Shown here in pieces: positions 1,596 through 5,785 of a stretch of DNA of 6,451 bases. The DNA is taken from the NCBI GenBank assembly GCA_020851015.1, contig JADZDN010000248.1, positions 1 to 6,451 on the forward strand. Direction: 5' to 3'. Below the pieces are notes generated by a model, which worked only from the letters and a program-made list of their open reading frames with translations, did no database searches and was not told the origin of the DNA. The position numbers and the translations under genes were made by a program. The first letter of the stretch is position 1, and every line of letters begins with the position of its first letter. Source of the DNA: Alphaproteobacteria bacterium (GTDB lineage Bacteria > Pseudomonadota > Alphaproteobacteria > JAEULC01).

Positions 1596-4271
1596 CTACT
1601 CGGCCTTCACGAGGGCGGCGAGCTTGCCGCCGTTGCCGGCAAGATCGGAATAGCTCCCCTCTTCGGCCACGCTGCCGTCGGCCATCACCAAGACGCGGTC
1701 GAAGCGCCGCGCGGCGCCGGCCTTTTGCAGCGCCCAGATGACGCCCTTGCCCTCGAGCCGCTTCAGCACGGCATCGAGCAGGCGCGCGTCGCTGGCGGCG
1801 TCGAGCGCGGTGGTCGCGTCGGCCAGCACCATCAGGTCGGGGTTCTTCAGCAGCGCGCGGGCGATGGCCAGCTTCTGGCGCTGCGCCGCCGACAGGCGCG
1901 AGCCGCGCGTGCCCACGTGGAAGGCCAATCCAGCCTCGACGATCGTATCCCGCAGATCGAGCGCGGCGATCACCTCGGTAATCATCGCGTTGGCGCGCTG
2001 GGGCGCCTGGGCCTGGTTCAGCGCGACCTTGCCGAACAGGATGTTGTCGCGCAGCGTCAACGCCGAGTTGAACCGTTCGGGATCGAAGAACTCGACCCTG
2101 CCTTTCAATGACGATGGCAGGCCGTCGGCGAAGGTGCGGCGGGCCTGCAGCATCTTTTCCTTGAAGGTCGGACCGATCGTGACATGGCGGTCGCGCAGCG
2201 GCACCAGCTTGAACGGCACCGACAGCACCATGGCTTTCTCGTCGCCGCTCAGCGCCTTGGTGCCGTCGCGCCTGGCCTTGTCGACTACCGGGCGGAACTG
2301 CGGCAGATCCTCGATGCGGATCACGCTGAATTCCGCCAGCAGCGTATTGCCCGCCGGCAGGTCGCCGGCAAGTTCCAGCAGGTTGCCCGCCACGGTGACG
2401 CCGATGTCGGCGAATTCGTCCTCGAGCTCGGTGCGCTTCAGCACCGAGCGGACATAGGTATTGCCGCCCAGGTTGTCCGGGTCGAAAACGCGGCTGTCGG
2501 CCGTGCCGAAGAAAAGATTCTCCGCCAGCGTCGCGTTCATGATGAAGCTCTGCGGATTGAACGGCTCCACCAGCGCGGCATTGGCCGGTTCCGCCAGGCG
2601 CGCCCGCATCGCGGCGCGCGCGCGCAGCAGCCGCGACACGAGGTCGGGCTGCGCCTTGGCGTCGATGTTGACCCGCAGCCCGAGCTGGTAGACGTCGTCC
2701 ATCATGTCCGCGCAGGCAAGCGCGGCCAGCGATTCGCGCTTCAGCCCTTCCTCGTCGCCGACGTCCAGCGCTTCGTAGTCGATCCACTGCGCGGCCACGT
2801 CGTCCACCGAGTTGCCGGCGATCGCCGACTCGGCCAGCGCGCGCCGGCGCAGGGCCGCGTCGTTCGGCGCGAATTCGGGCGGCCGCACCGGCCGGTGCTT
2901 CAGCACGTAGTGCAGGTTGTCGCCCAGCGTGCCCGACATCATCCCGGCGTCGCCGCCGACATAGGCGATGCGGCGGCCCAGCACGGCGGCCGGCAGGTCG
3001 ACGATCTCCTTGCCGCCGATCTTGAGCGAGCCGCTGCTGGGCTTGACCAGCCCGGCGACGAGCTGCGCCAGCACGTCCTTGCCGCTGCCCGTCGGGCCCA
3101 CCACCGCCACCCGCTCGTCCAGCGACACGGCGAAATTCAGGCGTTCCAGCAGGGTCACGTCCTCGTCGACGACCGACACGTCGCGCGCCACCACGTCGCC
3201 GGCCAGCCGCTCGACCCGCTCCGGCGGCGCCTCGACCGGCATCAGTCCCTCGACGTTGAACGCGGTCACGACCTGCTCGTACTTCTGCTGCGAGTCCTGC
3301 TGGATCTGGTAGTTGTTCAGCAGCTCGTTCCAGGGCGACAGCAGGTCCTTCTGCGCCGCCAGCGCCGCCACCAGCGCACCGACCGACAGCTGGCCCTCGA
3401 TCACGAGGTAGCCGCCGATCGAGACGAACAGGAACGGCGTCATCTGGGTCAAGAAATTGTTCAGGAACTTGACGAAGAACTTCAGGTTGTAGATCCGGAA
3501 ACGGATCGTGTAGACGCGACCCATGCGGTCGGAATAGTCGGCGCGCTCGTAGTCGACGGTATTGTGGGCGCGGATCTCGCGGGCCAGGTTTACCGTGTCG
3601 CCGATGCGCTCGCTGACCTTGCGCATTTCGCGCACCCGGTCCTTGCCAAGCAGGCGCACCCGGCGCTGCAGCTTGGGGATCACGTAGCCCTGGATCGGGT
3701 AGAGCACGACCGACGCCAGGCCCATGCGCCAGTCCTGCATGAAGATGAAGAAGATCGCGGTGAAAAGCAGCCCGCCCTGGTAGAGCGGCACCACGAAGGC
3801 ATCGCCGATGAACCCGCCGACCGGCTCGACCTCGGCGGTGATCATGTTGATCATCTCGCCTTCCGAGGTCTTGCGGAAATGCGGCAGCGGAAAGCGCAGG
3901 ATCGTGTCGTAGAGCTGGTAGCGCAGGCGACGCAACATGCGCTCGCCCAGCCGCCCCTTCAGCACGTTGATGTAAAGCTTGAACCCGCCGTTCACCAGCG
4001 TGAAGAACAGGAAGATGGCGCACAGAAACCCGAGCAGCTTGAAGCGGTCGCCGTGGAACAGGTCCAGCTCGATGCCGAGGAAGGCCGGCGGCCGCAGGTG
4101 ATCGCGGTGGCCGGTGTCGAGCACCTTGTTGATGATCTGCTTCGGCACGTCCAGCGACGCGTAGTAGAAGGGCAGCGACGCCAGCGTGACGAAGACGATG
4201 AAAAGCTGCGCCCGCCAGCTGTAGCGCAGGATGTACTTGAACAGGGATGGGTCGAAGACCGGCTGCGTCAT
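1596..4271 (-). CDS. ABC exporter-like membrane protein with expanded, catalytically atypical nucleotide-binding domain
   Basis: The protein has 891 residues; usual half-transporters have about 580-620. Residues about 20-310 form an ABC exporter transmembrane domain, with hydrophobic segments near 21-40, 78-97, 157-178, 181-200 and 278-303 and a cytosolic-loop motif HFRKTSEGEMINMITAEVE at 131-149. The NBD runs from about 355 to the end. Walker A is GPTGSGKD (392-399), with Asp where Ser/Thr binds Mg. The Q-loop reads YVGGD (437-441), with Gly440 for Gln. An extra region of roughly 270 residues follows. Then come the signature LSAAQ (793-797), Walker B LMVLAD (813-818, Ala817-Asp818 instead of Asp-Glu), D-loop ALD (822-824) and H-loop Gln849 for His. 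The fold and order are those of an ABC NBD. Substrate and direction are unknown, and it probably forms a homodimer since no partner gene adjoins. ATG 4271 is chosen because the homologous region starts soon after; no Shine-Dalgarno lies at normal spacing, the nearest GGAGG being 25 bases upstream. Confidence 0.9.
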   Translation of the reverse strand: MTQPVFDPSLFKYILRYSWRAQLFIVFVTLASLPFYYASLDVPKQIINKVLDTGHRDHLRPPAFLGIELDLFHGDRFKLLGFLCAIFLFFTLVNGGFKLYINVLKGRLGERMLRRLRYQLYDTILRFPLPHFRKTSEGEMINMITAEVEPVGGFIGDAFVVPLYQGGLLFTAIFFIFMQDWRMGLASVVLYPIQGYVIPKLQRRVRLLGKDRVREMRKVSERIGDTVNLAREIRAHNTVDYERADYSDRMGRVYTIRFRIYNLKFFVKFLNNFLTQMTPFLFVSIGGYLVIEGQLSVGALVAALAAQKDLLSPWNELLNNYQIQQDSQQKYEQVVTAFNVEGLMPVEAPPERVERLAGDVVARDVSVVDEDVTLLERLNFAVSLDERVAVVGPTGSGKDVLAQLVAGLVKPSSGSLKIGGKEIVDLPAAVLGRRIAYVGGDAGMMSGTLGDNLHYVLKHRPVRPPEFAPNDAALRRRALAESAIAGNSVDDVAAQWIDYEALDVGDEEGLKRESLAALACADMMDDVYQLGLRVNIDAKAQPDLVSRLLRARAAMRARLAEPANAALVEPFNPQSFIMNATLAENLFFGTADSRVFDPDNLGGNTYVRSVLKRTELEDEFADIGVTVAGNLLELAGDLPAGNTLLAEFSVIRIEDLPQFRPVVDKARRDGTKALSGDEKAMVLSVPFKLVPLRDRHVTIGPTFKEKMLQARRTFADGLPSSLKGRVEFFDPERFNSALTLRDNILFGKVALNQAQAPQRANAMITEVIAALDLRDTIVEAGLAFHVGTRGSRLSAAQRQKLAIARALLKNPDLMVLADATTALDAASDARLLDAVLKRLEGKGVIWALQKAGAARRFDRVLVMADGSVAEEGSYSDLAGNGGKLAALVKAE

Positions 4272-4478: not shown

Positions 4479-5785
4479 TCAGCAATCGACGGTGCGCTGA
4501 AACTCGAACGCGCTCAAATGTCGCTGGTGGGCGTCCCAATCCTCCAGCCTCACCTTCACATAGCTGTCGACGACCCCCTCGCCAAAGCCCTGGCGCAGCA
4601 CCTCGCTGGCCCCGAACTGGCGCAGCGCATCGAGAAGGTTGAGCGGCAGGCGGCGCACCTCCTTCAGCTTGTGGCCTTCGGTGTACATGTTGAGGTCGCT
4701 GCGCTTGCCGGGATCGCGACCCTGGGCGATGCCGTCCAGCCCGGCCGCCAGCAGCCCGGCCTGCAGCAAATGGGGTTCGCCGCCCCGTCGGCCAGGCGAA
4801 GCTCGAACCGGCCAACATCGGGGATGCGGACCATGTGGGTGCGGTTGTTGCCGCCAAAGGTCACCGCGTTGGGCGACCAGGTGGCGCCGGAGGTCGTAAC
4901 CGGGGCGTTGATTCGCTTGTAGCTGTTGACCGTCGGGTTGAACAGCGCGCAGAGCGCCTCGGCCGAATGCACCACCCCGCCTAGGAACTGGTAGGCGAGC
5001 CTGGACAGGCCGAGTTCGCCCTTGGCGTCCAGGAACAGGTTGTTGGCCCCCGCCCTATCCCACAGGGATACATGGGCGTGGCAGCCGTTGCCGGTCAGGT
5101 TGGTGAAGGGCTTGGGCATGAAGGTCGCCCGCGCCCCGTGCCTCTCGGCCAGCGTCTTCACCATGTACTTGAAGAAGACGTGCCGGTCGGCCGTCACCAG
5201 GCAGTCATCGTATTCCCAGTTCATCTCGAACTGGCCGTTGGCGTCCTCGTGGTCGGTCTGGTAGGGCTTCCAGCCCAGCCCCAGCATGCCGTCGAGGATT
5301 TCGCTGATCACCGGGTAGCGGCGCATCAGCGCCGCCTGGTCGTAGCAGGGCTTGGCCTGCACGTCGCGCGGGTCGGAGATCGCGCCGCCGTCGGGCTGGA
5401 TCAGGAAGAACTCGCATTCCACGCCGGTCTTCATGCGCCAGCCCTGCTTAGCGGCCTGCGCGATCTGGCGCTTCAGCATGGCGCGCGGCGCCGCCGCGAC
5501 CTCCTTGCCGTCCATCCACAGGTCGCCGGCCAGCCAGCCGACCTGGCTGTCCCAGGGCAGCACGATCAGGCTTTCGGGATCGGGCACCGCGAACATGTCG
5601 CTGTCGGCGGGCGTCATGTCCAGGTGGGTGGCGAAGCCGGCGAAGCCCGCGCCCGCCTTCTGCATCTCGCCGATCGCCGGCGCCGGCACCAGCTTGGCGC
5701 GCAGCACGCCGTAGAGATCGACGAAGGAGATCAGGAAGAAGCGGAGCTTCTTGTCCTTCGCCACTTTCGCCAGATCGATCGCCAT
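4479..5785 (-). pseudogene. glnT: Type III glutamine synthetase (GlnT) / gamma-glutamylmethylamide synthetase, frameshifted near 4772
   Basis: The enzyme joins glutamate to ammonia, or to methylamine in the GmaS branch, using ATP. ATG at 5785 gives an N-terminus that fits GlnT. Visible GS motifs are the metal Glu pair GVECEF (121-126), the DHEDANGQFEMNWEYDD block (178-194), NGCHAHVS (233-240), NSYKRINAP (287-295), NNRTHMVRIP (313-322) and RFELRLADGAANP (326-338). After Pro338 (codon 4774-4772) the frame shifts: the original frame runs 35 garbled residues to a stop at 4664. The expected C-terminus (LLQAGLLAAGLDGI, then the NMYTEGHKL block, ending TVDC) continues in the next frame from 4769 to the stop at 4479. 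One added base restores 435 residues, the length I recall for rhizobial GlnT. Adding the base that makes TAT after CCC would also restore the usual Asn-Pro-Tyr-Leu. No other lesion is present, so this is either a very recent mutation or an assembly error at a C-run. It lies 43 bases behind the glxD-like gene and is probably co-transcribed with it. The GlnT/GmaS choice cannot be made from sequence alone. Confidence 0.88.

Follow-up and report, generated by a model that had tools for sequence, protein, structure and literature searches.

How does a protein with the fold of an ATP-binding cassette (ABC) exporter work when most of its ATP site has been replaced? This question is raised by a long open reading frame (ORF) in a stretch of 6,451 nucleotides from an alphaproteobacterial assembly (contig JADZDN010000248.1), hereafter called the window. 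ABC transporters are defined by ATP-driven nucleotide-binding domains (NBDs). The window protein combines a transmembrane domain (TMD, Pfam ABC_membrane) and a following NBD (ABC_tran, split into two stretches) in a single chain, both above gathering scores, which is the organization of an ABCB/MsbA-type exporter. The residue set of a competent ABC ATPase is missing: the protein carries D399, G440, A817-D818 and Q849 instead. An earlier note, made from the DNA letters alone, had listed these five residues, an LSAAQ signature, a preserved ALD D-loop and 891 uninterrupted codons. Our translation contains all of them, and the frame was verified on the minus strand (Table 1). Two features had escaped that note, namely an aspartate at A-loop position 369 and an insertion in the NBD (residues 457-735). 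From its sequence, this insertion of about 280 residues seems to carry an additional copy of the helical subdomain. As our leading explanation, to which we assign somewhat less than an even chance, we propose that the protein may be an exporter-fold half-transporter whose NBD has turned into a non-hydrolysing structural or regulatory domain under the control of a cyclic-nucleotide-binding (cNMP) protein.

First, we asked whether the altered ATP site is peculiar to this copy. The comparison covered 282 sequences, drawn from 223 database proteins and 63 loci after removal of 4 of these 286 that are shorter than 800 aa; they were taken from the best 120 matches per search and are related to each other rather than independent. 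The Walker A Ser/Thr position 399 is acidic in 253 of them (Glu in 158, Asp in 95), and the Walker B Asp position 817 is Asn in 127, Ser in 109, Ala in 31 and Asp in 12. The Q-loop Gln (position 440) is present in 70/282 sequences, and the second Gly of the signature in 18/282. A-loop position 369 is Asp or Glu in 277 family members; among 28 control picks, 26 have Tyr there. These controls came from a search for TIGR02204 exporters, which matched in 24 of the 25 genomes searched, at places other than the family gene. The same 26 of 28 picks show S/T399, Q440, D817 and H849, with E818 in 27; the two that deviate, L139 and L142, were picked in the wrong frame and were excluded from later comparisons. 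Since the controls show canonical residues in the same columns, the motif columns are correctly assigned.

Among the matches listed, none of the 282 sequences exceeds four of seven canonical features, and two reach four. Homologues of the same length with canonical motifs, which according to the earlier note would make this copy a degenerate outlier, do not occur among them. The claim of five joint changes held for positions 399 and 817, and mostly for 440, throughout the family; it did not hold for Gln849 (37/282, with His in 192) and Asp818 (13/282, with Glu in 239 and Gln in 19). Within the clade of 17 sequences that includes the window, 16 have Gln849, and Asp818 is confined to the window copy; among the 265 sequences outside this clade the two residues occur in 21 and 12, respectively.

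This pattern is maintained by selection. In an even draw of 289 Alphaproteobacteria genomes, 89 (about one third) contain a family match, counted at E ≤ 1e-150 with three candidates scored per genome and one match each, and 88 of these 89 matches are free of internal stops. The reading frame is also open across the whole protein in all 64 loci that we collected (the window, its relatives L001-L003 and 60 from other genomes, about 6-19 kb each). Nei-Gojobori dN/dS ratios, for which synonymous change is crudely estimated in this GC-rich DNA, are 0.146 between the window and the 93%-identical L001 (TMD 0.124, NBD core 0.152, insertion 0.158), 0.32 between the window and L002 (NBD core 0.36, insertion 0.30), and 0.37 between the window and L003 (NBD core 0.43, insertion 0.52). 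The earlier note had argued for selection rather than decay and had named a dN/dS near 1 as evidence to the contrary; the frequency of the family, its open frames and the ratio to L001 bear its argument out. Its statement that similar long proteins occur in alphaproteobacterial genomes was also right. In a phylum-wide draw the family was found in 27 of 398 genomes. With looser limits, G156 holds matches at three places and G045 at two, so that the family is not single-copy everywhere. In a protein search the best 120 of 4880 matches are 817-981 aa long and share 46-100% identity with the window protein over the best local alignment; the 4880 matches may include ordinary exporters and are not a measure of family size. 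Plasmid records with a family match number 262, including 144 from Rhizobium and 80 from Sinorhizobium.

The distribution of conservation is unusual as well. In this family, the TMD (0.597) is more conserved than the NBD (0.489, 25 sequences), whereas control exporters from the same genomes show the reverse (NBD 0.693, TMD 0.574). The latter values rest on 23 sequences, that is, 28 picks minus three below the family cut-off and minus two of the remaining 25 in the wrong frame. We conclude that, at the level of sequence, residues for adenine stacking (A-loop), Mg2+ coordination (Walker motifs) and mostly the Q-loop Gln have been replaced across the family under purifying selection, the first two roles being those that we take these residues to have in ABC proteins.

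What, if not ATP, could govern such an NBD? A candidate is encoded next door. The gene downstream of the family member in locus L083 codes for a cNMP protein of 151 aa with no further Pfam domain. A profile of this protein matches outside the ABC ORF in 56 of 64 loci, and in 59 if the fused proteins of L039, L040 and L045 are included. The residues that presumably line the nucleotide pocket are Gly in 59/59, Glu in 57/59 and Arg in 59/59 of these, and the pocket looks intact by this measure. Among the 289 genomes, 87 contain both ABC and cNMP genes, 2 contain the ABC gene only, 10 the cNMP gene only and 190 neither. In 80 of the 89 ABC genomes (fused domains counted), the same strand carries the cNMP match no more than 600 nt downstream, with a median gap of 49 nt between the matches. 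Five of the 10 cNMP-only genomes hold an ABC relative at E ≤ 1e-70. The other five (G028, G126, G177, G272 and G284) have a cNMP match and no family member at this limit; these assemblies are possibly incomplete.

In other members the two proteins are joined. A C-terminal cNMP domain (PF00027) is fused to the ABC protein in L039, L040 and L045, and in proteins from Ruegeria sp. TM1040 and Azospirillum ramasamyi. The three fused loci cluster at 99 in a 68-row tree, which is a quick tree with warnings on the long rows L041, L046 and L044. Together, gene order and fusions establish a stable genetic tie between the family and a small CRP-type cNMP protein, either as the next gene or as a C-terminal fusion, to the extent that genome sequences can. 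Pfam detected no DNA-binding domain in this CRP-type partner. As a separate observation, genome G212 (L045, L130) encodes a fused ABC-cNMP protein and also a separate cNMP gene elsewhere, which stands beside a gene for GTa, the first glycosyltransferase of an operon often divergent from the family gene, with no ABC gene between them.

More distant relatives extend the fused architecture. Among the best 120 relatives of L040 (itself included), 87 contain PF00027 and 34 of the 120 also contain the GGDEF domain PF00990. The motif G[GDES][DEN]EF is absent after residue 1000 from all 37 relatives of at least 1140 aa, 34 of which have PF00990, so the GGDEF domain looks non-catalytic. P0240 and other relatives of about 1180 aa are ABC-cNMP-GGDEF fusions of this kind, without the signature motif. 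The ATP site of these distant relatives has changed as well. After two of the 120 relatives, both shorter than 800 aa, were dropped, motif counts (n = 84) gave Glu/Asp in 39 and Ser/Thr in 18 at position 399, Asp in 3 at position 817, and a less conserved Walker A.

The second set of neighbours consists of glycosyltransferase genes, often in a divergent operon on the upstream side. In L083, a divergent operon encodes a GT28-like protein, two GT4 proteins, a histidine phosphatase and another GT28-like protein. GTa occurs in 84 of the 89 ABC genomes, and 57 of the 89 have it in divergent orientation no farther than 600 nt away; across the 289 genomes, five have ABC without GTa, eight have GTa without ABC and 192 have neither. 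Named examples of family loci include pSymB of S. meliloti and plasmid pRL3b4 of Rhizobium leguminosarum, where the ABC gene sits between three glycosyltransferase genes, which come before it and share its strand, and the cNMP gene. Downstream of the glycosyltransferase operon, some loci (L083:16909-18599, L126:143-6114) carry a gene for an Opp-type ABC ATPase, and the corresponding profile c7 matches in 43 of 64 loci. In R. leguminosarum, importer genes flank this ATPase gene, perhaps as part of a larger import-plus-glycosylation locus.

How might these parts work together? With acids at the A-loop and Walker A positions, the protein is less likely to bind Mg-ATP in the normal way. The earlier note had considered nucleotide binding without hydrolysis, use of another residue set, a gated channel or a regulator; of these, a gated or regulatory role is favoured by the conservation of a nucleotide-binding partner. 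The ABC protein would act as a homodimer in which the arrangement of the NBD pair is set by the ligand on the cNMP partner rather than by ATP hydrolysis. Rearrangement of the NBDs would open, close or bias a transmembrane pathway, which may serve the product of the glycosyltransferases, for example a glycolipid or a lipid-linked glycan. More tentatively still, the complete system might be independent of ATP and gated by a second messenger, serving as a channel, flippase or receptor for an envelope glycan and built on an NBD with a duplicated helical subdomain.

Several observations weigh against this proposal. Conservation extends to the Walker A Lys/Arg, to Leu, Ser and Gln in the signature and to the D-loop Asp, and for the most part to the Walker B Glu. 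Such residues need not persist in a site that is wholly unused, so nucleotide or another ligand may still bind. The co-occurrence counts and their p-values ignore shared ancestry. The tie to glycosyltransferases consists of adjacency and co-occurrence only. At the threshold used, GTa is missing from five of the 89 ABC genomes, and the glycosyltransferase genes of R. leguminosarum share the strand of the ABC gene instead of diverging from it. Finally, none of the four loci of the window's own clade has the cNMP partner, or any of 13 profiled neighbours, beside the ABC gene, and a similar separation is found in G159, G225 and G212.

The history of this clade puts the last point into context. The window and L001-L003 form a group at 100 in the 68-row tree, nested at 99 in a nine-row group with L058, L060, L061, L063 and L065, all five of which have cNMP and glycosyltransferase neighbours. 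In the genomes of L001-L003, the cNMP gene and GTa are neighbours at another place, separated by 230-331 nt and with no ABC gene between them; tblastn at E ≤ 1e-10 detected no ABC remnant in the interval. G028 likewise has a cNMP-GTa pair and no ABC match. The cNMP match in G001 holds one TGA, and a 148-aa open frame is also listed there. Since the partners have stayed together in these genomes, the ABC gene appears to have moved, or to have been lost and then re-acquired. In the window clade, any link between the ABC protein and its partner would therefore act in trans.

The most serious competitor, which we nevertheless consider rather unlikely, is a membrane receptor or scaffold whose TMD senses an envelope glycan or lipid-linked glycan and signals through the NBD and the cNMP partner to the glycosyltransferases. 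Sensory proteins usually run from input to output domains, and the C-terminal order ABC-cNMP-GGDEF of the long relatives resembles this layout. No part of the protein is more conserved than the TMD, and the missing motif in all 37 long tails would imply output by binding rather than by catalysis. However, a GGDEF domain without its motif could equally well be a regulatory input, and Pfam scans of the two partner proteins and of five fusions reveal neither a DNA-binding nor a kinase domain.

It is less probable that the family uses ATP in an unusual manner, with the Walker A Glu/Asp and the Walker B Ser/Asn swapping metal-binding roles and Glu818 acting as a slow catalyst. The paired residues at positions 399 and 817 (E/S in 88, D/N in 66 and E/N in 50 of 282) are compatible with such a swap, as is the retention of the Walker B Glu and the H-loop His in the majority of sequences and of a basic Walker A residue in 280 of 282 (Lys 244, Arg 36). 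Against it stand the acid in place of the A-loop aromatic and the scarcity of the Q-loop Gln. In the window protein itself, Ala817, Asp818 and Gln849 leave little of the required residue set.

We regard as improbable a heterodimeric exporter in which the protein would be the degenerate half and a canonical half would supply one working site. Heterodimers in which one site is degenerate are a common kind, according to a review (PMC7756269), and nearly all genomes searched encode canonical TIGR02204 exporters at other places. Yet none of the 64 loci contains a second exporter-like ORF (more than 400 profile columns, E ≤ 1e-30; nine matches are partial and NBD-only), although a partner could be encoded elsewhere, and the working site would depend on the signature of the family protein, which has mostly lost its second Gly. 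That the gene is simply decaying and only appears conserved is very hard to believe: the window copy has lost Glu818, one residue beyond the 16 other clade members, and the ABC gene of its clade stands apart from the partners, but the low dN/dS to L001, the open frame in every locus and the same pattern across the family speak against it.

MsbA/ABCB half-transporters share the domain order and the NBD fold, and the model aligns over the whole NBD. MsbA_lipidA (TIGR02203) is the best NCBIfam match with 217.6 bits, below its cut-off of 602, and MsbA_rel (TIGR02204) reaches 169.7 bits, below 780.4. Unlike these transporters, the family has a replaced ATP site, the large insertion and a TMD that is more conserved than the NBD. 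CFTR (ABCC7), an exporter fold turned into a gated pathway, resembles our proposal in its way of working only, and is not known to have a cNMP partner. In CFTR, site 1 retains ATP and hydrolysis takes place at site 2 (PMC7756269). According to the same review, TAP, TmrAB, TM287/288 and MsRv1273c/72c carry degenerate ATP-site residues under selection, and exporters of this type keep one consensus site while binding ATP at the degenerate one (PMC7756269). In contrast to them, the present family also has an acidic A-loop and no canonical partner gene in the locus.

The closest precedent for the cNMP link is HetC from Nostoc, an ABC exporter that combines a peptidase with a CRP-type domain. This cNMP domain is needed for function and the N-terminal part that contains it binds ppGpp in vitro (PMC10986499). 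HetC differs in that its cNMP and C39 peptidase domains are N-terminal and its catalytic Glu, E970, is required (PMC10986499). In our family a degenerate ATP site goes together with a cNMP domain that either sits at the C-terminus or forms a protein of its own, and Pfam finds no C39 peptidase domain in the window protein or the relatives scanned.

Table 1. Features of the exporter-like ORF in the window
Feature	Position	Strand	Remark
Degenerate ABC exporter-like ORF	1596..4271	-	891 aa, ATG start, zero internal stops
TMD	3258..4250	-	residues 8-338; ABC_membrane match 45-305
A-loop position 369	3165..3167	-	Asp; Tyr in canonical exporters
Walker A GPTGSGKD	3075..3098	-	residues 392-399; Asp399 replaces Ser/Thr
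Q-loop position 440	2952..2954	-	Gly, not Gln
NBD insertion	2067..2903	-	residues 457-735, mainly helical
Internal repeat copy 2	2352..2594	-	residues 560-640; start of probable extra helical-subdomain unit
Internal repeat copy 3	1917..2120	-	residues 718-785; runs into signature
Signature LSAAQ	1881..1895	-	residues 793-797
Walker B	1818..1835	-	residues 813-818; Ala817-Asp818 at end
D-loop ALD	1800..1808	-	residues 822-824; conserved
H-loop position 849	1725..1727	-	Gln

The immediate neighbours of the ORF in the window were also considered as partners and set aside. In a search over L001-L003, the gene for gamma-glutamyltransferase (GGT) is found near the ABC gene in all three, and those for type III glutamine synthetase and a glutamate synthase domain in L001 only. 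The glutamine synthetase gene of the window (4480-5785, minus strand) is frameshifted near 4770, with the first 339 or so residues and the C-terminal 96 aa in different frames; it occupies a single frame in L001, and a sequencing error or a pseudogene may account for the difference. Between GGT and the ABC gene, the segment 1395-1560 is GC-rich with inverted-repeat-like segments by eye, and its spacing is unlike that in L001.

In sources that give these proteins a name, they appear as "ABC transporter ATP-binding protein", as "multidrug transport" or under comparable labels, which probably mislead. A literature search over titles and the beginnings of abstracts, with thin coverage of subscription papers, found no description of the family. 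A widespread, selected family whose ATP site is altered in all members would reveal which functions an ABC NBD can serve in the absence of ordinary catalysis. The tie to a cNMP protein makes second-messenger gating of an ABC scaffold directly testable, for example in rhizobia.
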